Shown here in pieces: positions 4,503-32,223 of a stretch of DNA of 64,000 nucleotides. The DNA lies in assembly GCA_033182465.1 (NCBI GenBank), contig CP137318.1, positions 3,472,001 to 3,536,000 on the forward strand, written 5' to 3'. Position numbers and translations under genes: made by a program. The notes below the pieces were generated by a model, which was not told where the DNA came from, did no database searches, and saw only the letters and a list, made by a program, of their open reading frames with translations. Positions within the stretch are counted from its first letter, which is position 1. Each line of letters opens with the position of its first letter. Source of the DNA: Sanghuangporus weigelae (taxonomy: Eukaryota; Basidiomycota; Agaricomycetes; Hymenochaetales; Hymenochaetaceae).

Positions 4503-4710
4503 TTCTGGCACATATATGTATGTATATTGCATCTTTTATGCATGAAAAAGTGTCTTGGACATATTATTTGCTTCACTTTGCTGTAATTTCTTTGCTGATT
4601 TTACTTTGCTCTCATTCCAGTTTGCACTGCAGGTCCTATAATGCTTTATTATATGCTCTGACTGCTATTTCATTTCGTCCTCTGTCCCTATACATTGCTC
4701 TTTGCCTACT

Positions 4711-5076
4711 ATGAGCTCCAGCAACTCACCTCCTCAATCTGTATCTGAGAATGATGACTCACCTATTGATCTGTGCTCTATTCTACAAGGCTTCACTCAA
4801 GAATGGACCACCTGGGATGCTATAGGAGCATTGACACACAGAATTAATTGCTACAGATGCTGGAAGACTTGGCTGCACTATTATGACCCACTGCAGAATG
4901 AGCTATCTGTTGGGTCAGAATTTTATGGCTTTATACGTTTTGCTGAAGATAGAGAAACAATTCGTCAAATACACCTATATAGGTGCAGAATGCACAAAAC
5001 ATATCGGTATATGAGGTATCTCCTCAGACATGGGGGCATCAGAAGTCTTAACTCTTATCTTATGATTCTTGGATGA
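4711..5076 (+). CDS. Hypothetical protein, 121 residues
   Basis: An ATG-started frame in AT-rich sequence, Ser/Pro/Asp-rich for the first 25 residues and then Trp/Tyr/Arg/His-rich (WDAIGALTHRINCYRCWKTW). No domain is recognised. Base composition differs from the host genes around it and the sequence lies in the 4.2 kb unclassified segment, so it may be part of a transposable element or an exon of a longer element gene. An identical copy is at 18523-18888. The upstream region carries several copies of a CTTTGCT-like word. Confidence 0.35.
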   Translation: MSSSNSPPQSVSENDDSPIDLCSILQGFTQEWTTWDAIGALTHRINCYRCWKTWLHYYDPLQNELSVGSEFYGFIRFAEDRETIRQIHLYRCRMHKTYRYMRYLLRHGGIRSLNSYLMILG

Positions 5077-5331
5077 CCACTATCTGATTTTATTTCTCAT
5101 GATGATTACTTATTTGATGAAAATTTGTAAAATATATTATTTTGCAATATTTTTTAAATAGTAAAATGTGTTGAGATATTATGTAAAGGACTTTGCACAA
5201 CTTTGCCTACTTTGCTGGATCAGAGAATTCTCTTGGCAAGGATATTTAAACCCACAAGTTTTTACATATATCTCCCTCATTTTTACTCTTCACTTTTCAC
5301 ACATTAGATAATCCTCTTTATACTATACTCT

Positions 5332-5631
5332 ATGACCTCTAATAACTCAACTCATCTCAACGCCGGCAAGTGGCTGTTAGGGAGTAGGCCCGAGGTTACA
5401 CCAGTTCGATCTTTTTGCCTAAGCAGCGGTGTGTTGTGCAGAGGTGATCTTATCTACTCACGTCTGGCTGTACCACGCGATCCCTTACTAGCCTTTCTAG
5501 TCGCGGTCCAAGTTATGGATGCTTTCAGATACGAGGTGATAGTAAAGCAGATTGGGATTTCCAAGAGGCGTGATAGTACAAAGCACACAGTAATAGCTCG
5601 CTGTAGGGCAAGCTTTACACCAGTGTGTTAA
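5332..5631 (+). CDS. Hypothetical protein, 99 residues
   Basis: An ATG-started frame of unknown family. A TATTTAAA box-like sequence lies about 90 bases upstream. The first ten residues (MTSNNSTHLN) resemble those of the frame at 4711 (MSSSNSPPQS), and the DNA around both starts is similar, so the two may be related pieces of one element. No motif is recognised. The coding status is uncertain. An identical copy lies at 19144-19443. Confidence 0.25.
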   Translation: MTSNNSTHLNAGKWLLGSRPEVTPVRSFCLSSGVLCRGDLIYSRLAVPRDPLLAFLVAVQVMDAFRYEVIVKQIGISKRRDSTKHTVIARCRASFTPVC

Positions 5632-8600
5632 GAGGATCGAAAGATGGGGAAATGAGGGACTAATCCTACAACTATTTATGCTCCCAGATATTCCATTTTC
5701 CGTCCTATTTCTTACTCATCCTGTCTCCACTTTACTCCACTTTTCTCCACCATTACATCTGTTCCTTTGTCATCCTGCTGCGCTTCGCTCCACTTTGCTC
5801 CAATCTTTGTCAGATTGTCTCCACTATGACAGTATTCTTGTGGAGTTGCTGACTGAGACAATAGAGGTGGTGTTCCGATGTGGAATACTCCACTGTCAGT
5901 ACTCCATAACGATGTCATTGCCGTCATTGAGTGGCATCTTTGCTCTTGGAGCGATGTAGGCTGCTCGGTATGTGATTCTTCGGAATTCATCTTGAGGTCC
6001 AGCGAGGGTAAGCATAACTCGCACGTCCGTGTTAAGGTGTCGGGTCGGTGTAGAGTATGGTCCAAGGCATATCATGAACTGCATAAGCTCTGCTGGTGGG
6101 TTGTGCTGGGTTCTGGTGACTAGCCATGCTTTGCCTTCATATCGTATGTCTCGAATGTAATGCCATATCCTTCATTGTATAAGGAGTTGTAACTGCTTGG
6201 TCTCCAGGTTCGCATCTCTCGGTAAATAAAGGTTTGCCTGTATCGTAGATGCTGGACATGGTGTGTGCAACTCCGGTCTATACCATCCAATCATTCTCCA
6301 AGTTATCGGGTTCGTAGTTCGAGGGGTCCGAGTTGTGATCGTGAGTTCCTCTCGTTTCTTGGGTACTATTGGGTTTGGTGGATTGGAATGCATTGTATCT
6401 TGAAGGTGTCGCTCGGTTTCGATGTGACAGTCACGCGTTGTCGATCGGCGGTGTCGTATCTGAAGGTGCTACAGATGTCCGTCCTACTAAGGGTGCTGAA
6501 TGTATGAAGGGACCTCCAAAAATGGGATGCCGACGCTATCAGACTCTCAAAGACCTACTACCCGGCAGGTGCCAGGAACCGTCGGAGACGTAATGGATGG
6601 GTCTAGGGATGCCGCTGGATAAAGGGAATAGGATAACAGGACCGCCGCTTGAGAGGGGGGATCACAGGGGGCTGCCGACGTAGCGTAAACACAATAGATG
6701 GAGAGAAAGGACCGTATAAGATGAATATATGGACTAAGCTGGAGTGAAAGGCTGGAAAGGGCGCTGCAGGGGTGTATGATAGGAAGGCTGGGTCGCCAGG
6801 TGGCCGCCGACGTTGAATAGAGGGGTGCCGGATTGAGGGGGAGGCTGCACAAATCTGCCGAAGTAGTGTAAACGCGATAGATGAAAGGAAAAGACCGTAT
6901 AAGATTAATAGATGGGATAAACTGGAGTGAAAGGCTGGAAAGGACGCCGAAGGGGAGTCTGATAAGAAGCCTGGGTCGCCGAAGGGTCGCCGAAGTCAAA
7001 TAGAGGGGCGCCGGACAGGTATAAAGTGTGGGGAGGAGGCTCAGGGTTAAATCCCAAGCCCTACTCACTCACTGAACGTCAGAGCGGCAGAGGCGTACCG
7101 GAGGCGGCGAAGGCAAGTAGAATGTGGAGTCAAACAAGAGGAGATGTCAAGGATAGTATATAGTCAAGGGGGAGGCTCAGTACATGAGGGGAGGCTCAGA
7201 GTGAGGGATATCTCGAACTCTGGCACTCGGTCTGGTACATGCTCTTGGAATCCTTGCTAGGCTTGGAATCCCTGTCGTCTACAAGCTAGTATAAGCTCTA
7301 TATATACTCTACTGCTGTCGCCGACACATCCTACTGTCTGACAACATCTCCTGAGTCATCTGGGTCACCAAGGGCCGCTGCCGGAGCGCCCAGGTGAAAT
7401 CTGAGAGTGGCAACGTGAGGGGGGCATCCAATCACATGAAATATTGAGTATCTGCAATAACACGGGCGCCGGTGGAGTTGGGCTTGGCGGCGCGAGTCGG
7501 TGGCTTGGCACGCCGATGTACCACATGCCTACCTTCCATACATGGTCTAATGGGGGCCGCCGCGTCGGGGGGAAGTCGGGAAACATCGGAACCGATGATT
7601 GGAGGCTGATATCGCGTATATGAGACAAAGGGCGCATCAGCCGATGTCCCTGAGGTGTCCGATGCATCGGCGGCACTCAATACAGAGTGTGGGCGATCCC
7701 TAGTGACTAATATGAGTGGCCGGAGCGGCAGTGCTGTGGGGGACTGCCGGACTGGTGGCAGATACATCGTAATGAGGCATGTAAGCACATATGACAATAT
7801 ATAGCTCCCTAGACAATGGGGGACTGCTTGGTAAGCTGTAGGAGGCGTCGGCGAGGGTACCTGAGGATGTCTGAGTGTCCGCCGCATTGATCGGCGCCAA
7901 GGGGGGCCGACTCGGAGGCATCCAGAGTCGCCGCACGGCTGTACGTATGGTAAATCATAAGATCGGCGGCACGTAGTCACTGAGGGATGTGTCCTATAGT
8001 GCCTGGTGCTGGGTAGGAGCTGTCGGCGGACCTGTCTGAGTGTCGGGGAGCCATCGGCGGATCGATTTGGGTCATAGGAGGGCGCCGCAGTACAGTACGT
8101 GTGCTGGAATCAATGGATACGTGCTCAAATGATGTCCCGAGTGCAATAGGAGTGTGCCCTCACACTCTCAGGTGTCGGCAGTGCTGGGATATGGTATCTG
8201 CAGTAAGAGGGAGCCATAGTATGAGTGTACTGGCACAGGAGGAGCCAGTGCGCTACAGCGTACCAACTGTTGCCGTGCATACTATGTAGTATACTTCATA
8301 AAGGACCATATAAACTCGTGCACAGACTTGACAGTGCTGAAATGCCAGTGAGGTCTCCATAAACCTTATTAGCCTTTAGCCTTTTAGTGTTTAGGCTTTA
8401 GTAGTTGTGCTTCTGGACTTCTAAGAAGTTTGATCGCTTCTTTTGGTCGAGGTCACTTGGGTTACTTGGTCAGCGGCATTAGAGTGGTAGTCCGCGGTAA
8501 TAGGCGGTCGGCGGTGTTAGCTGTTAGCGGGATTACGTATCCGCTTCAGTGCTTCTAGCGCTCGGGTGGTAACGGGTTACTGTTGCCTAGGCCGCTCGAT

Positions 8601-8716
8601 CGCTTGGGCCCGTGATAGCTGGCTTGGTTACCGGTCGCGTTTGGAAAGCTGATCGTGTAGATCTGTTGATCGCGTCGATCCTGATGCGAGTTTTTGAGCG
8701 GATCCTTTCAGATTTA
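5632..8716. other. Unclassified TE-like segment without recognised gene
   Basis: No gene is recognised on either strand. The segment includes repeated CTTTGCTCCA-like words near 5790, a pair of 183-bp direct repeats (6672-7045), and a pyrimidine-rich minus strand with TATATATA-like sequence near 7295-7305. The composition is unlike the host genes. Together with 4505-5631 it forms a 4.2 kb block flanked on both sides by related DUSP-unit sequence (about 4090-4500 and 8717-9080). It could be a degenerate retroelement read on the minus strand. No reverse transcriptase, integrase or transposase motif was found. Confidence 0.4.
6672..7045. repeat. Two 183-bp direct repeats
   Basis: 6672-6854 and 6855-7045 are similar along their whole length. 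Each begins CTGCCGA, then carries GTAAAC, GACCGTATAAGAT and AGTGAAAGGCTGGAAAGG, and ends near a TAGAGGGG block. They show scattered substitutions. Function is unknown; they could be sub-terminal repeats of a mobile element. The same pair is present at 20484-20857. Confidence 0.75.
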
Positions 8717-8851
8717 GTAGGGAGCTCCGATGCTAATTGATATTTACATAGGATATTGACTTTCTGCACTATGGTTCAAGAACGCGTACAAGCTCACGAC
8801 TTACAGGTACAGTGATTTTGATAATTGCTAATATATATCACACTATCTTAA

Positions 8852-9495
8852 TCTTAATATTAAAAACAGGACCATACTTTTCTTCACAGCCACCGCTGAC
8901 TAAATTCGGACCTTGAATTTGAGCGCTTCTTTTCTCATTTCCCATGTGATGCCAAGGTGATTCTACTACATTAAGGAGTTTGATCGCCGGTGATCTGCAG
9001 ATCGATCTGCTCCCACACTTCATCTACACATTACTTCATTCCTTGAGAGAAAAAAACCAGAAAAAAGGCAGGGGGACTCAAAGCATGTATGCATTACATG
9101 GATGTGCTCATCAGCCAAAGCACTATTCAAGCCTTGCTGGAAAAAAGGAAAAAACTAGGAAAATTTTGGACCTGTATGTAATGAACCATCCAAAAATTCT
9201 GTTCCTCCTTGCACAATCCAATTCAGTGTGTCCCATTGAACTGATTAATTTGGGTAAAGCTGCAAACTTTTTGCCACATATGAACAGACCAGATAAGCTC
9301 AATGGAGTTCCTTTTATTTTCTTATTTCTGTACATGTACAAATTAGTGCACCTGACTTCAAGTGTACAACTGATATGTTGAATTTATGTGTTGAATTTAT
9401 ATCAAGATGGATAGACAGAATAACCAGTAACGTAACAAAGACTGGGATTTATGGCCAGCAGGGTTTTCAGCGAAGCCGAAAACGCGAGTTGCTGG
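8852..9495 (+). mobile_element. Helitron-like non-autonomous element A
   Basis: Begins with TC preceded by A and ends in CTGG followed by T. This is the A|TC...CTRR|T border expected of Helitrons, without terminal inverted repeats or visible target-site duplication. Eight bases before CTGG lies a hairpin (TTTTCAGC-GAA-GCCGAAAA, one mismatch). No Rep/helicase ORF is present in 644 bp, so it would depend on an autonomous partner. Internal poly-purine stretches are shared with elements B and C. Confidence 0.6.
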
Positions 9496-9765
9496 TATTT
9501 AAAACAATACACTGATTCTACACGCTGACTAAATTCGGACCTTAAATTTGAGTGCTTCTTTTCTCATTTCCTGCGTGATTCTACTACATTAAGGAACTTG
9601 ATCGCCGGTGATCTGCAGATCAATCTGCCTCCACACCACTTCATCTACACATTAATTCATTCCTTAAAGGAGAAAATCAGAAAAAAGCAGGGAAACTTAA
9701 AGCATGTATGCATTACATGGATGTGCTCATCAGCCAAAGCACTATTCAAGTCTTGCCGGAAAAAA

Positions 9766-9799
<34 letters not shown>

Positions 9800-10133
9800 A
9801 GGAAAACTTCGGACATATATGCAATGAACAAAGTGATCAGCATCCAAAAACTCTGTTCCTCCTTGCACAATAATCCAATTCAGTGTGTCCCATTGAACTG
9901 ATTAATTTGAGTAAAGCTGTGAAAGTTCTGCCACATATGAACAGATCGGATAAGCTCAATAGAGTTCCTTTTATTTTATTTTTTCTGTACATGCACAAAT
10001 CAGCGCACCTGACTTCAAGTGTACAACTGATGTGTTGGATTATATCAAGTTGGATAAATAGAATAACTGGTAATAAAGACTAGGATTTATGGCCAGCAGG
10101 ATTTTCGGCGAGGCCGAAAACGCGAGTTGCTGG
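9496..10133 (+). mobile_element. Helitron-like non-autonomous element B
   Basis: Directly abuts element A in the same orientation. It keeps the internal blocks and the 3' structure: hairpin TTTTCGGC-GAG-GCCGAAAA, then CTGG and T. Its first 40 bases are diverged and do not show a clean TC start, so it may be a tandem copy formed by end-to-start joining. It contains a 30-base A-run (9768-9797), which differs in composition from the copy at 23580-23610. Confidence 0.55.
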
Positions 10134-10205
10134 TATGTATTGAAATTTGAATCAGATATAGACCGTATATCAAATTATATAATATTGCTCTTGTTTGCAT
10201 CTGTA

Positions 10206-10778
10206 CCAGCAACTCGCGTTTTCGGCTTCGCCGAAAACCCTGCTGGCCATAAATCATAGTCCTTGTCACTGGTTATTCTGTCTATCCAACTTGATATAAA
10301 TAAGAAAATAAAAGGAACTCCATTGAGCTTATCTGGTCAGTTTATATGTAGCAGAAACTTTCACAGCTTTACCCAAATTAATCAGTCTAAAGGGACACAC
10401 TGAATTGGATTGTGCAAGGAGGAACAGAGTTTTTGGATGCTAATCACACTTGTTCATTGCATACATGTCTGAAATTTTCCTAGTTTTTTTTTTTTCCTTT
10501 TTTCCAGCAAGGCTTGAATAGTGCTTTGGCTGATGAGCACATCCATGTAATGCATACATGCGTTGAGTCCCCCTGCTTTTTTTCCCTCAAGGAATGAAGT
10601 AATGTGTAGATAAAGTGGTGTGGGGGCAGATCGATCGGCAGATCAGATCACCGGCGATCAAACTCCTTAATGTAGTAGAATCACGCGGGAAATGAGAAAA
10701 GAAGCGCTCAAATTCAAGGTCCGAATTTAGTCAGCAGTGGCTGTGTAGAAAAGTACGGTCCTGTTTTTAATATTAAGA
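10206..10778 (-). mobile_element. Helitron-like non-autonomous element C (inverted)
   Basis: Reverse-oriented relative of A and B. On the minus strand it starts A|TCTTAATATT and ends CTGG|T with a perfect 9-bp stem (GTTTTCGGC/GCCGAAAAC, three-base loop). Removal of the element leaves flanks of the same length as the related unoccupied site near 420-471, although part of that site has diverged. It is 573 bp long and has no coding capacity. With A and B it forms a large inverted arrangement. Confidence 0.6.
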
Positions 10779-10890
10779 TGTTCAGACGCTGCTCTGACTC
10801 AATCCCGGTCCATTAGCACAGCACATCAGCCAGAGTTCTCTCTTCTACCCGTACTCAAGTAGATCCGTACTCGTATCCTAAGTGCTTACA

Positions 10891-11085
10891 ATGAGACGCA
10901 AGGCTGCAGTGAAAGCCACCAAGAAAACGCTGCCACATCCATCCTCAACGACAACATCAACATCGACTCGGGCTCCACCGCCGTCGAGATCCTGCCCTAC
11001 CTATTCCTCGGTCTGCGCAGCGCAGCGGCATCTGAGTCGACAAATTCGATCTTCAAGCCTGGATACGTGGAGCGAATATAAGTAC
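10891..11085 (+). pseudogene. Broken DUSP fragment (frameshifted)
   Basis: It keeps the ATG and the Lys/Ala-rich start (MRRKAAVKATKK). An extra base in the following A-run shifts the frame, so the conserved VEILPYLFLG block is read only in the next frame. No active-site Cys follows. It is the counterpart of the fragment at 579, which has lost the start codon but keeps the frame. Both stop before the P-loop. Confidence 0.7.
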
Positions 11086-11537
11086 TAGTGGCAATCGCAG
11101 CTCCTGTTTTGAATACCTTGGAAACACCCGAAAATCGTGTGGATAAACCGCCGTAAAGTCGGTATAATTACCGGATAAAAAGTATTTTTCGTCGACTCTG
11201 GCCTCATGCCATAATTGAGCTCTTTCATTGCAGTTTCATCTGGTCATGGAACATCATGAAATTAAAAATCTTCCGATAGGTTGCGAAACGGATTCGATCA
11301 ATTCACTGTCCGTGAAGATCACGTGGTATATAGCATTAGCGAGGCCTCCATAAACCGATCAGATTTCAGATGCTAAGGTATCGTACATATCTCAACTCTT
11401 TGATCTGGTCTAACCCTTGGTTATCAGGGCACTGAACTCACAAACTCTCGCGTTTCAATGTTAAACCCAGTACAAATCGTCAGTACTTGAGTTCAAAATT
11501 CAAATGCTTTCCGAACACTTGGAAATCAATGAAATTT

Positions 11538-11955
11538 CTAGCGATATGGCTGAGAGGAAGATACCGTCTTCAAAGACCCCCATGACCAACCCCCTGAGCG
11601 TAGAACGAAATGAGCTCGTCTGATACCCAAAATGGTTATTAGATTCGAAGTCTTGCGCAGTCGGGAGCTTCGCAGGTATCTTCGTCGAATGAGATCCAGA
11701 GTCTCAACCTGCGGGGGGAGCACCGACTTCGACCCCGATGCCCACTTCCCGTCTGCCCGAGCCCTTAGACCTCTCCGCCGTTACTACACACGAAAGCATG
11801 GTGTTTAGATTCGGACAAATTGCTCGTTCGCTCATGCATGAGCACATCCTAATCGTTTCCATAAAAGTTCGCGAACCGATTACGAGCTCCTCGAGATTCG
11901 ACGTCTCGGAAAGGAAGGACACGAGGACCCATTCACTCATCCCGCACCAGGGCAA
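11538..11955 (-). pseudogene. Decayed LRR/F-box-like remnant
   Basis: Counterpart of the minus-strand fragment at 1302-1735, with the same frame break and very similar text. No F-box is present. It is kept here only because it is conserved between units. Confidence 0.3.
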
Positions 11956-12354
11956 ACTGAATCTAAACTTTCACTAGTTCTCCCCCTCATCAGCTTGGAA
12001 GATGGGTGAACGGACAAATGATCTTGCCTGTCTGGCTCTTTTGCTTTGCTCTGTGTTATGGAACCATAGGTACTTCCATCGTGTGCCGCAGAAATCCGGA
12101 GATCCGACGCGTTCGGCGACTTCACTTACCGGAATACAGAGGAGGGGAATGGCCCTCTCGTTCGGTGGGCCCATTTCGGCCTCTTACTTTGCGCGGGACG
12201 CGAATATTGAAACGGACCACTTGTGCTCATCTCCGCATCCTTTTCTGACTCAATATTAATACCTCCATCAGCATCAGACGAGCCAGGCGTCTTCTCTCCC
12301 CCAATAAACAATCCACCCATACTCAAGTAAATCCATACTCACATCTTGCCTACC

Positions 12355-13420
12355 ATGGGACGCAAGGTTGCAATAAAGGCATCCAAGATGAACTCCACGG
12401 CAGACCTCAACGACGACACCGACCCCAGCCGCAACATTAGCACCAATACCAACGTCAACACCAACACCAGCTGCAACAGCGGCACCAATACCAACACCAG
12501 CACCAACACCAACACTAACAACAACGCCGACGCCAACACCAACACCAGCGTCAGCACCAACACCAGCACCAACACCAGCACCAACACCCGCACCAGCACT
12601 GACACCGAGGCTGGCACCAACGCAGACACCAACGCCGACGCTAATGTCGATGCAGACTCCGACGCCGTCGAGATCCTGCCCTACCTCTTCCTCGGCCCGC
12701 GCAGCACAGCGGCGTCCAAGCCGTTCATCCGTGCGCACGGGATAACGCACGTGCTGAGTATCGGCGCGTCGCCGCCGGGTCCTGCGCTGCCCGGCCTGGT
12801 GTACACGCGCGTGCCGATGCTCGACAGCCCGAGTGTGAGGATTGAAAATGTTTATCAGCGCGCGAGGGAGGCGATCGAGACTGTTCGGCCTCCTGATGAA
12901 GTTTCGAATCGTGTCGACTCTCAATCGTCTCCTTCTCACCCCGTACTTATACAAGCAAAGGAAAAGCAGAAGCTCAAACAGAACCAAAAACAAAAGGAAA
13001 AGGAGAAGAAGATCCTGGTGCATTGCTCGACAGCCGTCTCGCGCTCGCCCAGCATAGTCGCCGCGTACCTGATGTCGGAGCACAACATGTCGCTCAGGGA
13101 GAGTCTGGGGAGCATCGTCCGCGCGCGGCCTGCTGTGAACCCGAACCCGGGGCTGTTCGCGCAGCTGAAGGAGATGGAGGTGAGGATTAGGGGGTATTCT
13201 TCGATGGAGGGCGTGGAGAGCTTGCCAGGAAGAAAGGAGGAGAGGGTGAGGTTGTTTGAGGAGTGCGAGCGAGCCCACGACGAGGAAGAGGAGGATGAGG
13301 AGGAGTGGGGGTTGAAGAAGATTGAAGAGGAAGGTGAGATTGATAGTTTCTTTACTGTCATTCGTGCTAATTATTGCGGTCACTCTAGTTGGATCTCCAG
13401 CAATCTACTCAGAAGGCTGA
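12355..13420 (+). CDS. Dual-specificity phosphatase-like protein (paralogue)
   Basis: Closely related to the gene at 2116, with the same layout: MGRK start in CCATGG context, Asn/Thr/Ser-rich tract (shorter here), VEILPYLFLGPRS, Asp in PMLDSPS, Lys-rich insert, P-loop HCSTAVSRS with Cys224 and Arg230, and acidic tail. A conserved 55-nt intron (13334-13388) removes the 3' read-through. The tail then ends in the same ten residues as the gene at 2116, and the product is 336 residues. That the intron is kept in a diverged paralogue supports it. The glycine normal in CX2GX2R is Ala here too. Identical copy at 26167. Confidence 0.8.
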
Positions 13421-14458
13421 ATCCGAGATCACAGACGGACAACTTTGAAATGGATATTTTATACTCCTTTAGACTTTGTAATCGACTCAGTCATACCAGT
13501 CAAAGCAATGCTTATTTGCGAGTTTATCTTCGCCGGATTATCATTGGATGTATGCGGTGAATGAGCGAGCAGTTGCACCATCACGCCCTTATGTATTCCA
13601 GATCAGGAGATTCTGGACAGTACGCCACTACCCTTAGAACGTGTGCATAAATGAATTTATCTAGCTTCCTGATGTCTTCGAACTTCCGGTTGCTTCGCAC
13701 AGAGGCTCATCATGAACAGCAAAGTCGTTGATCATATTTTGATTACCACTGGCAGCTTGAAATGCTCGGACTAAAAGCTTTCATACTGTTATAGTCGTTA
13801 AGAGTCGCATCTTGGGAAGGGCATCAATAGCCCTCGCGAGGGACCTTGACATCTGAAAAGATTCCGCTGGCTTGAACAGACGACCGGAATACTTTCTGTT
13901 GCGCCAAGAATGCCAGAGCTAGTGAGAGCAACGAAAGGTCTCTCCCGTCCGGAGGGGTTGAGATCTGTTCCGATAGTTGAAGTATAGACTTCAATCATTT
14001 CTTGCGTGCTCATCAGGTTTTCGAACTAGCTTAGGAACGTCGGTCGGAATCACCTGCTCCAGATATTCATGTGGGTTTCTGATTGTCTTGTATCGCAAAT
14101 AAAGTCGTCCTTCAACTTGATAGTATGCTTCGAATCCTTTATAGTCTAGATCCACACCTTTATCCTGAAAGGCTCTCGGACAGTGACACAAAACCATTAT
14201 ACTCCAGTTCGAGATAGGCACCACAGAAGCCGTGATTCCCAATGGTAATGCAGAACCAGGACCAGAGTCAGATATGTATCACCTCAAAACTGTGACGAGT
14301 ATTGAGCAGTGACGAGGTTTCAGCCATGCACGACGATAAGCACACAGTATCTTGACGAGCAACTGATGGAATTTCTTTCGTACCTAGATGCTCTTACATT
14401 TCGAAATCATAAAGTAAATAGAAGCCACCGGAACGGAGACCGCAGAGAGGCCACTGGA
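13421..14458. other. Spacer with decayed minus-strand ORF
   Basis: No complete gene is seen. Minus-strand frames at 13798-14013 and 13991-14242 overlap and read as one broken product containing FQDKGVDLDYKGFEAYYQVE. The family is not recognised. This is the best preserved version of the fragment at 3484-4038. The last 100 bases before 14459 are unique to this unit and form the 3' flank of the dihydroorotate dehydrogenase gene. Confidence 0.35.
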
Positions 14459-15526
14459 TCACCTCGGCGCGTCCGATAGTATCTGAAACGCGCGTACTCC
14501 CTCTCGCCCGATTAAAGTCGCACACGCGACCACATTAGCTCCCGCATTCCGCATTCGCGCAACGGCAGCTGGGGTCGTGACACCTCCAATTCCTACAAGC
14601 GCTATTCGACGAACAGCAGGATCGGTAGAGCCCGATATGAGTTTGGAAAAAGAGTAGACATTCCCGAGCGAGACTGAATGAATGGCCTCGCCTGCGAGGC
14701 CCCCTAGGACGGTCGGTAAAGCGTATGGAGAATCCCCCTCGTCCCCAAACTTTGACTGCGACTCTTTCGCTGTGAGCATCTGTTCCGCAAAGAGCAGGCT
14801 CGAGCCCAGTGTATTCGTGCATGAGAGGAATGCGATTGGGTTATATCGCTCGCCGTCTATGTCTCTTGAAAGACTTGCGATAAGGGTATGAATGTCGTTA
14901 AACTGCGTCGAATAGGTATAGGGAGGAAGCTTCAGCCCGATGGTAAGTGTCCGGTCCGACCAATACGCCATCGCAAGCACAGCAAGGAGAGGACTCAGCG
15001 CAGAAGGGGTGTAGGACGGCGGAGGGGCGTGCGCAATATTTGGACAGCTCGTGTTGAGCTCGATCCCAATCCGACTGGTCTCGCCGTCCGTATCTCCAAG
15101 TTTTTGACGAAGCTGCTGAATAGCTTCAACCATGTTCTTGAGTTCCGAAGGCGATGATGAAGTTATGCTAATGATGATCGGCTTCGTCGTGCCCTTACTT
15201 TGAAGAAGAGACTCGACCCATGACAAATATCGAGAGAGGGGATAAGGAGAGTACCCGTACGAGTTAACCGAAGATATGGACTCTGCCGAGAAGGCTACCT
15301 AGAACGTATCAATCAATATTTAATTTTTTTTTCAAATTGTAAAATAACTCACAGTGTGCACCGCAGGGTGATTCTCTGCGAATCCGTTCAAAGTTGCTGT
15401 CCGTGTAGTTACTGCACCTGCATATTCGCATGCGTACAGTTCGCGAAGCTGCTTCTCCTCCGAAGCCCACGGGCACGAAGAGTTCATGAGCGCAGGAGAA
15501 ATACTCAAACGATTGATAGTAGCCAT
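14459..15526 (-). CDS. Class 1 dihydroorotate dehydrogenase
   Basis: An FMN enzyme of the dihydroorotate dehydrogenase class 1 family, which oxidises dihydroorotate to orotate in pyrimidine synthesis. Seen here: NSSCPW near the start, GAVTTRT, SVNSYGYSPYP after the intron, the catalytic loop LNTSCPN with the class 1A cysteine, LKLPPY, and the phosphate-binding end VGIGGV...GANVV..ATLI. Two exons (15526-15353 and 15298-14459) with a 54-nt intron give 355 or fewer residues, 337 from this start. The start at 15526 fits the family length. ATGs at 15583 and 15595 are also in frame and would add an N-terminal extension. There is no membrane anchor, so it is probably cytosolic. In fungi with a mitochondrial class 2 enzyme this class may act on another substrate. 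An identical copy lies at 28271. Confidence 0.88.
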
Positions 15527-20857: not shown

Positions 20858-22663
20858 GTTAAATCCCAAGCCCTACTCACTCACTGAACGTCAGAGCGGC
20901 AGAGGCGTACCGGAGGCGGCGAAGGCAAGTAGAATGTGGAGTCAAACAAGAGGAGATGTCAAGGATAGTATATAGTCAAGGGGGAGGCTCAGTACATGAG
21001 GGGAGGCTCAGAGTGAGGGATATCTCGAACTCTGGCACTCGGTCTGGTACATGCTCTTGGAATCCTTGCTAGGCTTGGAATCCCTGTCGTCTACAAGCTA
21101 GTATAAGCTCTATATATACTCTACTGCTGTCGCCGACACATCCTACTGTCTGACAACATCTCCTGAGTCATCTGGGTCACCAAGGGCCGCTGCCGGAGCG
21201 CCCAGGTGAAATCTGAGAGTGGCAACGTGAGGGGGGCATCCAATCACATGAAATATTGAGTATCTGCAATAACACGGGCGCCGGTGGAGTTGGGCTTGGC
21301 GGCGCGAGTCGGTGGCTTGGCACGCCGATGTACCACATGCCTACCTTCCATACATGGTCTAATGGGGGCCGCCGCGTCGGGGGGAAGTCGGGAAACATCG
21401 GAACCGATGATTGGAGGCTGATATCGCGTATATGAGACAAAGGGCGCATCAGCCGATGTCCCTGAGGTGTCCGATGCATCGGCGGCACTCAATACAGAGT
21501 GTGGGCGATCCCTAGTGACTAATATGAGTGGCCGGAGCGGCAGTGCTGTGGGGGACTGCCGGACTGGTGGCAGATACATCGTAATGAGGCATGTAAGCAC
21601 ATATGACAATATATAGCTCCCTAGACAATGGGGGACTGCTTGGTAAGCTGTAGGAGGCGTCGGCGAGGGTACCTGAGGATGTCTGAGTGTCCGCCGCATT
21701 GATCGGCGCCAAGGGGGGCCGACTCGGAGGCATCCAGAGTCGCCGCACGGCTGTACGTATGGTAAATCATAAGATCGGCGGCACGTAGTCACTGAGGGAT
21801 GTGTCCTATAGTGCCTGGTGCTGGGTAGGAGCTGTCGGCGGACCTGTCTGAGTGTCGGGGAGCCATCGGCGGATCGATTTGGGTCATAGGAGGGCGCCGC
21901 AGTACAGTACGTGTGCTGGAATCAATGGATACGTGCTCAAATGATGTCCCGAGTGCAATAGGAGTGTGCCCTCACACTCTCAGGTGTCGGCAGTGCTGGG
22001 ATATGGTATCTGCAGTAAGAGGGAGCCATAGTATGAGTGTACTGGCACAGGAGGAGCCAGTGCGCTACAGCGTACCAACTGTTGCCGTGCATACTATGTA
22101 GTATACTTCATAAAGGACCATATAAACTCGTGCACAGACTTGACAGTGCTGAAATGCCAGTGAGGTCTCCATAAACCTTATTAGCCTTTAGCCTTTTAGT
22201 GTTTAGGCTTTAGTAGTTGTGCTTCTGGACTTCTAAGAAGTTTGATCGCTTCTTTTGGTCGAGGTCACTTGGGTTACTTGGTCAGCGGCATTAGAGTGGT
22301 AGTCCGCGGTAATAGGCGGTCGGCGGTGTTAGCTGTTAGCGGGATTACGTATCCGCTTCAGTGCTTCTAGCGCTCGGGTGGTAACGGGTTACTGTTGCCT
22401 AGGCCGCTCGATCGCTTGGGCCCGTGATAGCTGGCTTGGTTACCGGTCGCGTTTGGAAAGCTGATCGTGTAGATCTGTTGATCGCGTCGATCCTGATGCG
22501 AGTTTTTGAGCGGATCCTTTCAGATTTAGTAGGGAGCTCCGATGCTAATTGATATTTACATAGGATATTGACTTTCTGCACTATGGTTCAAGAACGCGTA
22601 CAAGCTCACGACTTACAGGTACAGTGATTTTGATAATTGCTAATATATATCACACTATCTTAA

Positions 22664-23307
22664 TCTTAATATTAAAAACAGGACCATACTTTTCTTCACA
22701 GCCACCGCTGACTAAATTCGGACCTTGAATTTGAGCGCTTCTTTTCTCATTTCCCATGTGATGCCAAGGTGATTCTACTACATTAAGGAGTTTGATCGCC
22801 GGTGATCTGCAGATCGATCTGCTCCCACACTTCATCTACACATTACTTCATTCCTTGAGAGAAAAAAACCAGAAAAAAGGCAGGGGGACTCAAAGCATGT
22901 ATGCATTACATGGATGTGCTCATCAGCCAAAGCACTATTCAAGCCTTGCTGGAAAAAAGGAAAAAACTAGGAAAATTTTGGACCTGTATGTAATGAACCA
23001 TCCAAAAATTCTGTTCCTCCTTGCACAATCCAATTCAGTGTGTCCCATTGAACTGATTAATTTGGGTAAAGCTGCAAACTTTTTGCCACATATGAACAGA
23101 CCAGATAAGCTCAATGGAGTTCCTTTTATTTTCTTATTTCTGTACATGTACAAATTAGTGCACCTGACTTCAAGTGTACAACTGATATGTTGAATTTATG
23201 TGTTGAATTTATATCAAGATGGATAGACAGAATAACCAGTAACGTAACAAAGACTGGGATTTATGGCCAGCAGGGTTTTCAGCGAAGCCGAAAACGCGAG
23301 TTGCTGG
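22664..23307 (+). mobile_element. Helitron-like element A (copy 2)
   Basis: Second copy of 8852-9495, with the same A|TC start, 3' hairpin and CTGG|T end. Confidence 0.6.
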
Positions 23308-23579
23308 TATTTAAAACAATACACTGATTCTACACGCTGACTAAATTCGGACCTTGAATTTGAGTGCTTCTTTTCTCATTTCCTGCGTGATTCTACTACA
23401 TTAAGGAACTTGATCGCCGGTGATCTGCAGATCAATCTGCCTCCACACCACTTCATCTACACATTAATTCATTCCTTAAAGGAGAAAATCAGAAAAAAGC
23501 AGGGAAACTTAAAGCATGTATGCATTACATGGATGTGCTCATCAGCCAAAGCACTATTCAAGTCTTGCCGGAAAAAAGG

Positions 23580-23612
<33 letters not shown>

Positions 23613-23945
23613 GGAAAACTTCGGACATATATGCAATGAACAAAGTGATCAGCATCCAAAAACTCTGTTCCTCCTTGCACAATAATCCAATTCAGTGTGT
23701 CCCATTGAACTGATTAATTTGAGTAAAGCTGTGAAAGTTCTGCCACATATGAACAGATCGGATAAGCTCAATAGAGTTCCTTTTATTTTATTTTTTCTGT
23801 ACATGCACAAATCAGCGCACCTGACTTCAAGTGTACAACTGATGTGTTGGATTATATCAAGTTGGATAAATAGAATAACTGGTAATAAAGACTAGGATTT
23901 ATGGCCAGCAGGATTTTCGGCGAGGCCGAAAACGCGAGTTGCTGG
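23308..23945 (+). mobile_element. Helitron-like element B (copy 2)
   Basis: Second copy of 9496-10133. It differs at 23356 (G for A) and in the A-run at 23580-23610, which is preceded by GG instead of CT and followed by T instead of C. Confidence 0.55.
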
Positions 23946-24017
23946 TATGTATTGAAATTTGAATCAGATATAGACCGTATATCAAATTATATAATATTGC
24001 TCTTGTTTGCATCTGTA

Positions 24018-24590
24018 CCAGCAACTCGCGTTTTCGGCTTCGCCGAAAACCCTGCTGGCCATAAATCATAGTCCTTGTCACTGGTTATTCTGTCTATCCA
24101 ACTTGATATAAATAAGAAAATAAAAGGAACTCCATTGAGCTTATCTGGTCAGTTTATATGTAGCAGAAACTTTCACAGCTTTACCCAAATTAATCAGTCT
24201 AAAGGGACACACTGAATTGGATTGTGCAAGGAGGAACAGAGTTTTTGGATGCTAATCACACTTGTTCATTGCATACATGTCTGAAATTTTCCTAGTTTTT
24301 TTTTTTTCCTTTTTTCCAGCAAGGCTTGAATAGTGCTTTGGCTGATGAGCACATCCATGTAATGCATACATGCGTTGAGTCCCCCTGCTTTTTTTCCCTC
24401 AAGGAATGAAGTAATGTGTAGATAAAGTGGTGTGGGGGCAGATCGATCGGCAGATCAGATCACCGGCGATCAAACTCCTTAATGTAGTAGAATCACGCGG
24501 GAAATGAGAAAAGAAGCGCTCAAATTCAAGGTCCGAATTTAGTCAGCAGTGGCTGTGTAGAAAAGTACGGTCCTGTTTTTAATATTAAGA
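24018..24590 (-). mobile_element. Helitron-like element C (copy 2, inverted)
   Basis: Second copy of 10206-10778, with the perfect 9-bp 3' hairpin. Confidence 0.6.
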
Positions 24591-24702
24591 TGTTCAGACG
24601 CTGCTCTGACTCAATCCCGGTCCATTAGCACAGCACATCAGCCAGAGTTCTCTCTTCTACCCGTACTCAAGTAGATCCGTACTCGTATCCTAAGTGCTTA
24701 CA

Positions 24703-24897
24703 ATGAGACGCAAGGCTGCAGTGAAAGCCACCAAGAAAACGCTGCCACATCCATCCTCAACGACAACATCAACATCGACTCGGGCTCCACCGCCGTCGAG
24801 ATCCTGCCCTACCTATTCCTCGGTCTGCGCAGCGCAGCGGCATCTGAGTCGACAAATTCGATCTTCAAGCCTGGATACGTGGAGCGAATATAAGTAC
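24703..24897 (+). pseudogene. Broken DUSP fragment (frameshifted, copy 2)
   Basis: Identical to 10891-11085, with the same single-base frameshift after the Lys/Ala-rich start and no active site. Confidence 0.7.
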
Positions 24898-25349
24898 TAG
24901 TGGCAATCGCAGCTCCTGTTTTGAATACCTTGGAAACACCCGAAAATCGTGTGGATAAACCGCCGTAAAGTCGGTATAATTACCGGATAAAAAGTATTTT
25001 TCGTCGACTCTGGCCTCATGCCATAATTGAGCTCTTTCATTGCAGTTTCATCTGGTCATGGAACATCATGAAATTAAAAATCTTCCGATAGGTTGCGAAA
25101 CGGATTCGATCAATTCACTGTCCGTGAAGATCACGTGGTATATAGCATTAGCGAGGCCTCCATAAACCGATCAGATTTCAGATGCTAAGGTATCGTACAT
25201 ATCTCAACTCTTTGATCTGGTCTAACCCTTGGTTATCAGGGCACTGAACTCACAAACTCTCGCGTTTCAATGTTAAACCCAGTACAAATCGTCAGTACTT
25301 GAGTTCAAAATTCAAATGCTTTCCGAACACTTGGAAATCAATGAAATTT

Positions 25350-25767
25350 CTAGCGATATGGCTGAGAGGAAGATACCGTCTTCAAAGACCCCCATGACCA
25401 ACCCCCTGAGCGTAGAACGAAATGAGCTCGTCTGATACCCAAAATGGTTATTAGATTCGAAGTCTTGCGCAGTCGGGAGCTTCGCAGGTATCTTCGTCGA
25501 ATGAGATCCAGAGTCTCAACCTGCGGGGGGAGCACCGACTTCGACCCCGATGCCCACTTCCCGTCTGCCCGAGCCCTTAGACCTCTCCGCCGTTACTACA
25601 CACGAAAGCATGGTGTTTAGATTCGGACAAATTGCTCGTTCGCTCATGCATGAGCACATCCTAATCGTTTCCATAAAAGTTCGCGAACCGATTACGAGCT
25701 CCTCGAGATTCGACGTCTCGGAAAGGAAGGACACGAGGACCCATTCACTCATCCCGCACCAGGGCAA
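25350..25767 (-). pseudogene. Decayed LRR/F-box-like remnant (copy 2)
   Basis: Identical to 11538-11955. Confidence 0.3.
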
Positions 25768-26166
25768 ACTGAATCTAAACTTTCACTAGTTCTCCCCCTC
25801 ATCAGCTTGGAAGATGGGTGAACGGACAAATGATCTTGCCTGTCTGGCTCTTTTGCTTTGCTCTGTGTTATGGAACCATAGGTACTTCCATCGTGTGCCG
25901 CAGAAATCCGGAGATCCGACGCGTTCGGCGACTTCACTTACCGGAATACAGAGGAGGGGAATGGCCCTCTCGTTCGGTGGGCCCATTTCGGCCTCTTACT
26001 TTGCGCGGGACGCGAATATTGAAACGGACCACTTGTGCTCATCTCCGCATCCTTTTCTGACTCAATATTAATACCTCCATCAGCATCAGACGAGCCAGGC
26101 GTCTTCTCTCCCCCAATAAACAATCCACCCATACTCAAGTAAATCCATACTCACATCTTGCCTACC

Positions 26167-27232
26167 ATGGGACGCAAGGTTGCAATAAAGGCATCCAAGA
26201 TGAACTCCACGGCAGACCTCAACGACGACACCGACCCCAGCCGCAACATTAGCACCAATACCAACGTCAACACCAACACCAGCTGCAACAGCGGCACCAA
26301 TACCAACACCAGCACCAACACCAACACTAACAACAACGCCGACGCCAACACCAACACCAGCGTCAGCACCAACACCAGCACCAACACCAGCACCAACACC
26401 CGCACCAGCACTGACACCGAGGCTGGCACCAACGCAGACACCAACGCCGACGCTAATGTCGATGCAGACTCCGACGCCGTCGAGATCCTGCCCTACCTCT
26501 TCCTCGGCCCGCGCAGCACAGCGGCGTCCAAGCCGTTCATCCGTGCGCACGGGATAACGCACGTGCTGAGTATCGGCGCGTCGCCGCCGGGTCCTGCGCT
26601 GCCCGGCCTGGTGTACACGCGCGTGCCGATGCTCGACAGCCCGAGTGTGAGGATTGAAAATGTTTATCAGCGCGCGAGGGAGGCGATCGAGACTGTTCGG
26701 CCTCCTGATGAAGTTTCGAATCGTGTCGACTCTCAATCGTCTCCTTCTCACCCCGTACTTATACAAGCAAAGGAAAAGCAGAAGCTCAAACAGAACCAAA
26801 AACAAAAGGAAAAGGAGAAGAAGATCCTGGTGCATTGCTCGACAGCCGTCTCGCGCTCGCCCAGCATAGTCGCCGCGTACCTGATGTCGGAGCACAACAT
26901 GTCGCTCAGGGAGAGTCTGGGGAGCATCGTCCGCGCGCGGCCTGCTGTGAACCCGAACCCGGGGCTGTTCGCGCAGCTGAAGGAGATGGAGGTGAGGATT
27001 AGGGGGTATTCTTCGATGGAGGGCGTGGAGAGCTTGCCAGGAAGAAAGGAGGAGAGGGTGAGGTTGTTTGAGGAGTGCGAGCGAGCCCACGACGAGGAAG
27101 AGGAGGATGAGGAGGAGTGGGGGTTGAAGAAGATTGAAGAGGAAGGTGAGATTGATAGTTTCTTTACTGTCATTCGTGCTAATTATTGCGGTCACTCTAG
27201 TTGGATCTCCAGCAATCTACTCAGAAGGCTGA
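26167..27232 (+). CDS. Dual-specificity phosphatase-like protein (copy 2)
   Basis: Protein-identical to the gene at 12355-13420: 336 residues with the 55-nt intron at 27146-27200 and P-loop HCSTAVSRS (Cys224). With the gene at 2116 this makes three full DUSP genes in the window. The surrounding unit, including the broken fragment at 24703, is duplicated with it. Confidence 0.8.
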
Positions 27233-28270
27233 ATCCGAGATCACAGACGGACAACTTTGAAATGGATATTTTATACTCCTTTAGACTTTGTAATCGACTC
27301 AGTCATACCAGTCAAAGCAATGCTTATTTGCGAGTTTATCTTCGCCGGATTATCATTGGATGTATGCGGTGAATGAGCGAGCAGTTGCACCATCACGCCC
27401 TTATGTATTCCAGATCAGGAGATTCTGGACAGTACGCCACTACCCTTAGAACGTGTGCATAAATGAATTTATCTAGCTTCCTGATGTCTTCGAACTTCCG
27501 GTTGCTTCGCACAGAGGCTCATCATGAACAGCAAAGTCGTTGATCATATTTTGATTACCACTGGCAGCTTGAAATGCTCGGACTAAAAGCTTTCATACTG
27601 TTATAGTCGTTAAGAGTCGCATCTTGGGAAGGGCATCAATAGCCCTCGCGAGGGACCTTGACATCTGAAAAGATTCCGCTGGCTTGAACAGACGACCGGA
27701 ATACTTTCTGTTGCGCCAAGAATGCCAGAGCTAGTGAGAGCAACGAAAGGTCTCTCCCGTCCGGAGGGGTTGAGATCTGTTCCGATAGTTGAAGTATAGA
27801 CTTCAATCATTTCTTGCGTGCTCATCAGGTTTTCGAACTAGCTTAGGAACGTCGGTCGGAATCACCTGCTCCAGATATTCATGTGGGTTTCTGATTGTCT
27901 TGTATCGCAAATAAAGTCGTCCTTCAACTTGATAGTATGCTTCGAATCCTTTATAGTCTAGATCCACACCTTTATCCTGAAAGGCTCTCGGACAGTGACA
28001 CAAAACCATTATACTCCAGTTCGAGATAGGCACCACAGAAGCCGTGATTCCCAATGGTAATGCAGAACCAGGACCAGAGTCAGATATGTATCACCTCAAA
28101 ACTGTGACGAGTATTGAGCAGTGACGAGGTTTCAGCCATGCACGACGATAAGCACACAGTATCTTGACGAGCAACTGATGGAATTTCTTTCGTACCTAGA
28201 TGCTCTTACATTTCGAAATCATAAAGTAAATAGAAGCCACCGGAACGGAGACCGCAGAGAGGCCACTGGA
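27233..28270. other. Spacer with decayed minus-strand ORF (copy 2)
   Basis: Same content as 13421-14458. The broken minus-strand frames are at 27610-27825 and 27803-28054, of unrecognised family. Confidence 0.35.
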
Positions 28271-29338
28271 TCACCTCGGCGCGTCCGATAGTATCTGAAA
28301 CGCGCGTACTCCCTCTCGCCCGATTAAAGTCGCACACGCGACCACATTAGCTCCCGCATTCCGCATTCGCGCAACGGCAGCTGGGGTCGTGACACCTCCA
28401 ATTCCTACAAGCGCTATTCGACGAACAGCAGGATCGGTAGAGCCCGATATGAGTTTGGAAAAAGAGTAGACATTCCCGAGCGAGACTGAATGAATGGCCT
28501 CGCCTGCGAGGCCCCCTAGGACGGTCGGTAAAGCGTATGGAGAATCCCCCTCGTCCCCAAACTTTGACTGCGACTCTTTCGCTGTGAGCATCTGTTCCGC
28601 AAAGAGCAGGCTCGAGCCCAGTGTATTCGTGCATGAGAGGAATGCGATTGGGTTATATCGCTCGCCGTCTATGTCTCTTGAAAGACTTGCGATAAGGGTA
28701 TGAATGTCGTTAAACTGCGTCGAATAGGTATAGGGAGGAAGCTTCAGCCCGATGGTAAGTGTCCGGTCCGACCAATACGCCATCGCAAGCACAGCAAGGA
28801 GAGGACTCAGCGCAGAAGGGGTGTAGGACGGCGGAGGGGCGTGCGCAATATTTGGACAGCTCGTGTTGAGCTCGATCCCAATCCGACTGGTCTCGCCGTC
28901 CGTATCTCCAAGTTTTTGACGAAGCTGCTGAATAGCTTCAACCATGTTCTTGAGTTCCGAAGGCGATGATGAAGTTATGCTAATGATGATCGGCTTCGTC
29001 GTGCCCTTACTTTGAAGAAGAGACTCGACCCATGACAAATATCGAGAGAGGGGATAAGGAGAGTACCCGTACGAGTTAACCGAAGATATGGACTCTGCCG
29101 AGAAGGCTACCTAGAACGTATCAATCAATATTTAATTTTTTTTTCAAATTGTAAAATAACTCACAGTGTGCACCGCAGGGTGATTCTCTGCGAATCCGTT
29201 CAAAGTTGCTGTCCGTGTAGTTACTGCACCTGCATATTCGCATGCGTACAGTTCGCGAAGCTGCTTCTCCTCCGAAGCCCACGGGCACGAAGAGTTCATG
29301 AGCGCAGGAGAAATACTCAAACGATTGATAGTAGCCAT
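28271..29338 (-). CDS. Class 1 dihydroorotate dehydrogenase (copy 2)
   Basis: Protein-identical to the gene at 14459-15526. Exons are 29338-29165 and 29110-28271. The catalytic loop LNTSCPN and the FMN-binding C-terminal glycines are intact. Alternative in-frame starts are at 29395 and 29407. If both copies are real, the gene dose of this FMN enzyme is doubled. Confidence 0.88.
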
Positions 29339-29529
29339 ATCAGCCAGCCTTGATGCCGAACGTCGCGGTTGGATAGCAAGCGCGTCAAATCTCATCACGC
29401 TACTCATTTCTCCCCCCTTGATAAGAAACAAAATTGATTACATAATCAGCTCCCGCAAGAGAAAGAAAAGACTCTAAATCTGCAAAATAAAATAAAATAC
29501 CACGAGGACAGGACAGAGAACGAAGAATA

Positions 29530-30452
29530 TCATTTTAGCGATTCTTCTCGTTCCACAACAAATCGTTCCAGCTTAATAAGTATGGTTGTCCGTGAAGGAT
29601 ATTGATCAGTTGGCGTGTTGTGTGCTGTGACACGTCCGGGCTGGAGCAAGACAATCAAGGTTACGAACGATCACCATCTTTAGAATGAACTCACAAATCC
29701 AAGTCCATCTAGAACTGCTTCCACTATTCCTGCGGATAGAGACGAGCAGCTCAGTTGGCTCATCTCTCGAGGGACTGAGATATATCGCGTTATTGGGGGA
29801 TCGTTGTCAATGATCATATCTAATGTACAGAATAATCAATCCACGCCCCCCCCCCCCCCCATGAATCACTCTCTTCGAATAAAGATACTTACATTCGTCA
29901 TCATGTTCCACACTTTTCTCGATCGCATCCGCCGGTTTACCAAAGACGGTCCGCCAGACTTGGGTGTGTATAGACATCAAGGCAGGTAAAAACCGAATTT
30001 CGCGTTTTGGTGCTTTGGATTGAGATTCCGTCCTCCAAATCATTAGCTCTAGAACACGGGTGCCGATGCGATATCCCAGCACGTTCAACCTGCGTGATTT
30101 GAAGTAAGGACCAGCTCGAACTCGCGCCGTAACCTTCAATTTTCAGCACCTACCTTCGCTCAAGATCTGCAATCCCATTGACGCGCTTCTGCGTATACTG
30201 CACAATCTCGGAAAAGAGGAACGCAAACGCCGAGAGGGAGACCTCCGCTGTGCGCGTTTTGTTGAGGTTCCGTTCGTAAATATTAGGTCGTGGTCTTGCC
30301 ATAGCCGCGATAGCTGCAAGATTCGTCGTTGCAGGTGCCGGAGTTGGAAACGAGAAGCGCGTCGAGCTTGAGGCCGGAGAGAAGTGGTCTGACGACACTG
30401 AGGCGCCAGAAAGGACGGACATTCGTGGGTTGACCGGTTGCGGGTACGCCAT
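29530..30452 (-). CDS. TRS31: TRAPP complex subunit TRS31/TRAPPC5 (copy 2)
   Basis: Protein-identical to the gene at 15718-16639. Exons are 30452-30154, 30089-29893, 29819-29695 and 29640-29530. The only difference inside the gene is one more C in the intronic C-run (29846-29860). A duplicated gene for a stoichiometric complex subunit is usually neutral or slightly harmful, which fits a very young duplication. Confidence 0.93.
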
Positions 30453-31051
30453 CGCGTCAGTGATTTACGACAGACTCCGGCAATTCACCTATTAGATATC
30501 GGATAGAGGGATGTAGGAACGAAAGCAGTCCAATGCACTGTAGATGTACATGTAGAAGATGAGAATTCGCGTGCACGTTCAGTCTGAACGAGGAAATGAA
30601 AACACGTGATGATGACGCGTCGGAACTTGATCAAATTGAATGTCCGACGACTACAATCCGTCAAGCTTCCACTTCGAGTTAGTGTTCCTTGTCCGATGAT
30701 AGGAATCGTCTATGAATTTGACGATACCAACATAAGGAGGGGGGGGGAAGCATTGAGCCTGTCATTGAACTTGAAATACAGAAACTTTGTTATGGATCGG
30801 TATCTTCTACATGTATGTCTATATGGAATGATTGAAGATAAATAACTACACTACCAGCGCCAGCTATTTATGGTATACAGGATACATCCACCGGTATATG
30901 ATACAGGTTACGATTTGTTTAGAATTCCGCCACGGAAAGTATGAGATGCTTATGGATAACAGATTCTGCGAAAAGAAGCGAAATGAAACGTACATATCCG
31001 AATAAAAGGAATAATGATGATGACGATAAGAACGTGAGGCGAAATAACTGG

Positions 31052-32223
31052 CTATCGTCTGTATTGCGAGCTGCTATCATTGAAGAACGAGGTGAAGCTC
31101 GGGTCAAAGTTGCTCGTGGATGCATCGCACTGATCAACCTGGATGGGCAACCCGAAGATATTGAAAAATGGCATAGTCTCAACTTCGGAGGCGGAAGACT
31201 GAGGATCCATTTTGTTCCTATTCGTAGTCTCAGAGCCAAACTGCTGACCGAAGAGAGTATAGGTGGTGCTGTTCGTTGGGAACCGGCTGCCGAAGTCAAA
31301 GTGTGGTGCGGGCACCTTCGGAAAAAAAATTCTATGTTAGAGATCAAAAAAGTTGAAAGAACCTCTCACCTGTTCTGGGTCATTCGTTAATTGAGATAGG
31401 CATAGATGAGATGAACCGCCTTCTGGTGAGTCCACTGGTCGCTGAGAGGTTCCAGAGTATTGCCCAGCAACAGATGTACTTTCGAAAAGGGACTTGCGAA
31501 GAGATTCGATAAAATCCTGATGAAAGTTCAGACCGTGTGTACCAAGAAAGTGAAAATTTGAAGCGCACGCACGTCACCATAATCATCCTCATATGCATTG
31601 ATGGTTCCCACCGGCTCAGAGGCATGCCGCTGGGTTTCGTGCTCGAATTGCTGAGGAAGAGGGGACCGGTCGATGGACGATTTCGTAGAATGGTTGGCAT
31701 TCACAGCTGTTTTCTTCCGCAGAGACCGCCTGGAGCCAATAGAAGACTTCTGCGATGGTGGAGACGTTGGATGAAAGAAGAAGGCGCTAGAATCATCCTG
31801 GGGTACATCAGAGCAAGAAGGAAGCCGAACCACCTCTCGACGCCGAGGTTGGTATCGGTACTCCGGATATTGCTCTGCATGTTTCTCCTTCACTTCATTG
31901 GCGCGCCCTATCCACTCGTTCTTTTGCGGCTCAGGCATGAGTCTCCAAAGCACGCCCGCCTCCCTGCTCAGCTCTCTGTTGTCCCGGTTCCGGTTCTCCT
32001 CCTTTTTTCGATAATCGGATGCAAAAAGGATGAAAGGATTGGCAGGTCGTCTTATGTGTTTGTAATCCCGCTTTCTTCTTCGTGAAGGTCCAGCTGAGCT
32101 GGGTTCTTGTTGATAATCGAACTGTGCATCTAGGAAGAAAGTGCTAGCGGTGTCGATAGATGGACTCTGTGAAGCGGTGTAGGAAAGAAGATAGTGCGGG
32201 GCGAGCGAAGCGGAACTCGGCAT
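31052..32223 (-). CDS. HMG-box transcription factor (intact copy)
   Basis: A single HMG-box DNA-binding protein of the fungal MATA_HMG-box type. The start ATG at 32223 is in unique sequence. Three exons (32223-31573, 31516-31370, 31315-31052) with 56- and 54-nt introns give 353 residues. A basic stretch SRRRKRD precedes the box at about residues 56-126 (HIRRPANPFILFASDYRK, EAGVLWRLMP, NEWIGRANEVKEKH). A second basic patch QPRRRE follows, then a Ser/Pro/Gln-rich region. Such proteins bend DNA at AT-rich sites and in Agaricomycetes include fruiting and mating-related regulators; which role applies here cannot be told. No homeodomain or pheromone-receptor gene is near, so a mating-type locus is not supported. 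Confidence 0.85.

Follow-up and report, generated by a model that had tools for sequence, protein, structure and literature searches.

A probable recent, repeat-free tandem duplication of 13.8 kb beside an older DUSP gene array in Sanghuangporus weigelae

Tandem gene arrays arise by repeated local duplication. In this study, we analyzed a stretch of 64,000 nucleotides (hereafter the window) from the medicinal bracket fungus Sanghuangporus weigelae (Hymenochaetales; contig CP137318.1, positions 3,472,001 to 3,536,000), in which a block of about 13.8 kb is present twice, head to tail, next to an array of older DUSP genes. The closest described events are the spontaneous segmental tandem duplications of budding yeast, which are likewise direct tandem copies of a multi-gene segment; according to the sections of that report used here, about half of them arise without long homology, and the repeat-free ones used 5–10 bp of microhomology or low-complexity DNA (PMC2518615). 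Only 1 bp is shared at the junction of the S. weigelae block, which on our analysis fits the yeast pattern poorly, although an A-rich stretch is present no more than about 50 bp leftward of the first base of the block (4505); the yeast events were also recovered in laboratory assays, whereas the block is known from an assembly.

Two other known situations resemble the block in part. Tandem gene arrays are matched by the diverged DUSP copies d1–d4 of this locus, whereas the 13.8 kb block exceeds the array units of 3.83 kb in size, is much younger than they are and spans unrelated genes. False duplications in assemblies, as far as the excerpted account describes them, are near-identical adjacent copies that inflate gene counts and are decided by read depth; most often they are separated by gaps and represent divergent haplotypes, whereas the block studied here is gapless and almost undiverged (PMC9516828). 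As read from the assembled sequence, we consider the block likely to be a genuine and very recent direct tandem duplication that was made without repeats, and probably an event of an ordinary, known kind at a locus where tandem duplication had occurred before.

Extent of the duplication and position of its new junction

The two copies were delimited by pairwise alignment and self-BLAST, with copy A at positions 4505–18316 of the window (13,812 bp) and copy B at 18317–32127 (13,811 bp). They are adjacent and lie in the same direction, and the self-BLAST of the window gave one match of 13,814 columns at 99.93% identity. Pairwise alignment revealed three isolated substitutions between copies A and B (A/G at 9544/23356, C/A at 18254/32064 and C/T at 18290/32100) together with three homopolymer tracts that differ: a poly-A tract (9766–9798 in copy A), a poly-C tract at 16033/29846 (C14 in copy A versus C15 in copy B) and a poly-G tract at 16926/30738, which is shorter by three G in copy B. 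The original prediction, which was made from the sequence without database searches, had described two near-identical copies of about 13.81 kb differing at three substitutions and three homopolymer tracts, and both statements held. It had also seen no spread of C-to-T changes, and this agrees with our count, since there are three single-nucleotide variants (SNVs) in all, two of them transitions, one of which is a G to A in copy A. Repeat-induced point mutation of the copies was rejected, with three SNVs only and without many C-to-T or G-to-A changes. No N letters occur across the 184 kb examined around the block, which is also the region that was compared with itself for similar duplications (E 1e-20, length of at least 250 bp).

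The age of the three boundaries was judged within this genome. The HMG-box open frame of copy B (31531–32400, minus strand, 290 codons, PF00505) runs unbroken through the right outer breakpoint (32127|32128), which clearly has the appearance of ancestral sequence. A decayed Helitron-like remnant, found by local alignment (4230–4758, plus strand), lies across the left outer breakpoint (4504|4505). Its stretch 4441–4758 reached a local alignment score of 45.5 against a maximum of 30 in 300 shuffles, all of them mononucleotide shuffles, and the alignment past 4504|4505 is weak and gappy with a poorly defined far end; the left boundary is thus probably ancestral as well, inside the decayed Helitron. 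Because both outer boundaries look ancestral, only 18316|18317 would be new and the ancestor would have been single-copy.

At this sole new junction, the breakpoints share a single base: read forwards, the unit and the right flank begin with one common base (C), and read backwards, copy A and the sequence to the left of the block have no terminal base in common. One shared base is little more than the chance expectation. The sequences flanking the right breakpoint scored below the shuffle maximum against the Helitron tested. With 1 bp of homology and no repeat at the breakpoints, recombination between repeats (non-allelic homologous recombination) was therefore rejected as the direct cause, and the one-base, repeat-free join proposed earlier was confirmed.

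The dispersed Helitron-like elements provided a reference for two of the differences. At site 9544, G is found in copy B and in 10 of 10 other Helitron rows (two lie within the block, and eight were taken from seven places out of many genome matches), and the A of copy A is therefore regarded as derived. A poly-A run of 30 or 31 A is common to both copies (9768–9797 and 23580–23610) and comprises 6 to 12 A in the 10 other rows; as the expansion is found in both copies, it predates the duplication. For one of the two SNVs near the right end, at which copy A encodes an aspartate (D) and copy B a tyrosine (Y), the closest HMG paralogue in the genome has E at the site, and this leans to D as the ancestral state but decides nothing.

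Origin of the second copy

In a single-copy ancestor, the sequence at 18316 (inside the HMG-box gene) would have been joined to that at 4505 (probably inside the old Helitron remnant), with a single base in common, through either two breaks or one break plus a template switch. The route might have been the end-joining of sister chromatids with breaks at unequal positions, or template switching during replication. We favour end-joining slightly, given the near absence of microhomology, yet the two are close to even and one junction cannot separate them. Filamentous fungi use end-joining heavily. If the duplication is real, it represents a very young change in copy number in a mushroom, resolved to the exact base at its junction, and it doubles the gene of a trafficking subunit, a second dihydroorotate dehydrogenase (DHODH) and a phosphatase in a repeatedly duplicated locus, and it would illustrate a repeat-free route to extending gene arrays. 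In the living strain, the second copy would roughly double the dose of DUSP, DHODH and TRS31.

Several points weigh against a genuine duplication, or against the route proposed for it. The evidence comes from the assembled sequence. Two of the three SNVs fall in the last 63 bp of copy A, by the new junction; the chance of two SNVs at that given end is about 6e-5, a value reckoned post hoc, and the chance of any two of three SNVs lying within 36 bp anywhere is about 0.016. Such a cluster at the tip of copy A would also be expected from low-quality tips of reads or contigs. Repair at junctions of this kind is error-prone, and error-prone synthesis at a repair junction would cluster SNVs likewise. 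Except for the SNV at 9544, the remaining differences are all at homopolymer tracts, and the edges of the poly-A tract look like consensus noise, the left one deviating from the Helitron pattern in copy A only and the right one in copy B only. In the yeast report, a section heading states that non-homologous end-joining does not contribute to the duplications (PMC2518615), and some of the false duplications in the account cited above were joined by wrong gap filling and have no gap between them (PMC9516828). Finally, the identity of the analyzed assembly with the published one is strong but not exact. The published assembly is given as 13 contigs, 33.96 Mb, with the longest contig at 4.49 Mb, an N50 of 2.77 Mb and a GC content of 47.93% (PMC10803629), and the one analyzed has 33,870,148 bases in 13 contigs, so that the totals differ by about 0.09 Mb; contig C1, which contains the window, has 4,491,666 bases, and C5, with 2,774,212 bases, fits the published N50 provided that the contigs are numbered by size.

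The alternative that best survives these points is an assembly artefact, in which one true copy was laid out twice through a chimeric read, a graph tangle or a bad join of overlapping contig ends. We consider it unlikely, though it agrees with the near-zero divergence, with half of the differing places being homopolymer tracts, with the SNV cluster and with blunt, arbitrary breakpoints, and the 13.8 kb unit falls within the range of long-read lengths. Contigs of hifiasm are built from overlapping reads. The absence of N letters nearby argues against an artefact, and a low-quality tip should carry indels too, not two clean substitutions alone. Wrong gap filling, as in the known false duplications (PMC9516828), also finds little place in the pipeline as described for this strain, which comprises HiFi reads, hifiasm and four rounds of NextPolish, with no scaffolding or gap-filling step in the part of the description consulted (PMC10803629). 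Were the block an artefact, the gene set of the assembly would count several genes twice.

A real junction could also exist without a fixed chromosomal duplication, if the assembly had incorporated into the chromosome a 13.8 kb circle of extrachromosomal DNA or a duplication carried by only some nuclei of the culture. A circle of this exact unit would give the junction 18316|18317 and leave the outer boundaries intact, as seen. Copy-specific bases in the middle and at the end of the unit would fit two chromosomal copies better than a circle; we regard this origin as quite improbable. Taken together, an assembly or mosaic origin is possible, at roughly one chance in four.

Slightly less probable again is an older tandem duplication, the interior of which was kept alike by gene conversion or unequal exchange, with differences surviving mainly at the edge of the homology. 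Such a history would suit the SNV cluster, in which two of the three sit no more than 63 bp from the right edge of the homology. However, there are only three SNVs, the left edge has no similar cluster (no SNV was found within the first 5 kb of the unit), and the DUSP copies d1–d4 at the same locus have diverged, with synonymous divergence (dS) of 0.10–0.51.

The succession of two dikaryon haplotypes, which the original prediction had offered as the alternative to a young gene-dose change, is very improbable, as the strain is described as monokaryotic (PMC10803629) and about 80 SNVs would be expected in 13.8 kb at the reported k-mer heterozygosity of 0.58%, versus three seen, even though that heterozygosity is odd for a monokaryotic strain (PMC10803629). 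The young gene-dose change is the half of that earlier pair that is better supported. The heterozygosity value itself is unexpected in a strain called monokaryotic.

Genes of the block and the frame at the junction

Recognized domains were found in four loci per copy, namely DUSP, DHODH, TRAPP/TRS31 and an HMG box. Of the 20 open reading frames (ORFs) scanned, seven have a Pfam match and 13 have none at E 0.05, and the seven or more loci per copy claimed earlier are thus confirmed for four. The claim that each copy holds the full set of genes stands for DUSP, DHODH and TRS31 but not for the HMG-box gene, which is incomplete in copy A. No Rfam families or tRNAs were found in the window. None of the three SNVs lies in the DUSP, DHODH or TRS31 frames; two are in the HMG frame and one is in a Helitron-like element.

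The DUSP frame of copy A (12331–13557, plus strand) matches PF00782 (DSPc) and carries the HCxxxxxR motif, and that of copy B (26143–27369, plus strand) is identical to it over 409 codons. The main exon of the class 1-like DHODH was located at 14462–15298 in copy A (minus strand) by PF01180 and by PDB matches, several of which, out of 26, are named fumarate-type or DHOD A enzymes; the exon of copy B (28274–29110, minus strand) encodes a protein 100% identical to it. The genome contains just two matches to the DHODH protein of the block, and both lie within the block. A separate, stronger DHODH-family gene is present at C2:64618–65542, and the DHODH of the block is therefore not the sole one.

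The TRS31/TRAPPC5-like gene of copy A (16027–16651, minus strand; copy B, about 29840–30464) consists of two exon-bearing frames. The frame 16027–16329 matches PF04051 with 53.3 bits, above the cut-off of 27, whereas the frame 16340–16651 reaches 15.9 bits, below the cut-off, and has TRAPPC5 as its PDB match. The variable poly-C tract lies within the 3′ end of the open frame 16027–16329 and probably sits in an intron.

The HMG-box frame of copy A (17721–18347, minus strand, PF00505) is truncated and fused at the junction. Its 5′ part was lost at 18316|18317, while the box itself is intact, and a new ATG followed by about nine codons, contributed by the left end of copy B, is in frame with the box, so that the truncated copy may form a new chimeric frame. 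Its start lies near a divergently oriented ORF. Compared with the HMG frame of copy B, it has two non-synonymous differences, G/S and D/Y, beside the box. That the junction created a new chimeric transcription-factor gene from this predicted frame is distinctly unlikely on the present sequence; if the frame is transcribed, the event would amount to the birth of a chimeric regulator in addition to the doubled doses of TRS31, DHODH and DUSP.

Older DUSP array, repeats and contig ends

A local tandem array of diverged DUSP genes spans C1:3466762–3475276 and adjoins the block on its left, a feature that the earlier description of the locus had left unmentioned. Three further tandem DUSP copies lie there, at C1:3,466,762, 3,470,259 and 3,474,092, and the last of these lies in the window at 2092–3342 (plus strand), where it was recognized by PF00782, by the catalytic motif and by genome search. 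DNA identity between array units is about 78–93% for the main matches and falls to 71% in shorter pieces; for two of the units, the repeat period is 3,834 bases. Among d1, d2, d3 and d4, the dS values given above are accompanied by ratios of non-synonymous to synonymous divergence (dN/dS) of 0.38–0.55. The older copies are too diverged to be assembly errors, and real tandem duplication therefore occurred here before. Asn/Thr-rich N-terminal stretches are present in d2–d5 and were not seen in the part of d1 taken; d1 has a stop at codon 247 of the 283 taken, past the catalytic motif, which may simply be the end of the gene. Outside this locus, the genome gave weak DUSP-like matches only (E 6.9e-6 or worse); the strong ones all lie in tandem here.

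Helitrons characteristically start with TC after an A, carry a 3′ hairpin and end with CTRR before a T. Element ends of this kind delimited a cluster of Helitron-like, non-autonomous elements at 8851–10779 in copy A, with its counterpart at 22663–24591 in copy B; some of the elements are arranged in tandem, and one is inverted. The elements start with TC after an A, have a 3′ hairpin and end with CTGG before a T, and by eye these features were present in seven of eight rows at the 5′ end and in seven of eight at the 3′ end. They belong to a family of about 645 bp (8851–9496 in the window, plus dispersed copies), some members of which form head-to-tail pairs. The Helitron-like cluster proposed earlier is thus supported by its ends but not by proteins, as the 20 scanned ORFs yielded no domain of a Helitron protein, a result that does not include a genome-wide Rep/helicase search. 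The annotation of S. weigelae, in the part consulted, includes one rolling-circle element, 74 bp long, and 1,215 miniature inverted-repeat transposable elements (PMC10803629), and Helitrons may therefore be mislabelled there.

Two other repeats lie side by side in copy A. A dispersed repeat of 1.82 kb with constant ends (6439–8260) has copies up to 99% identical across the genome; it was found in at least 40 places (the best 40 of 628 candidates scored), sometimes beside other repeats, and its three scanned ORFs gave no Pfam match. A stretch of 1,064 bp (5375–6438, plus strand) matches, in the genome, the ends of a dispersed element that resemble long terminal repeats (LTRs); elsewhere it occurs as same-strand pairs about 10.7–10.8 kb apart, like the LTRs of a large element.

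With regard to the rest of the assembly, neither the Rfam family (with the best 39 of 1,362 candidates scored) nor an exact search for a conserved pattern detected a 5.8S rRNA, and the ribosomal DNA may be missing from the sequence. Of eight contig ends sampled, all but the right end of C5 carry telomere repeats, and the arrays at these seven ends mix TTAGGG and TTAGGC hexamers.

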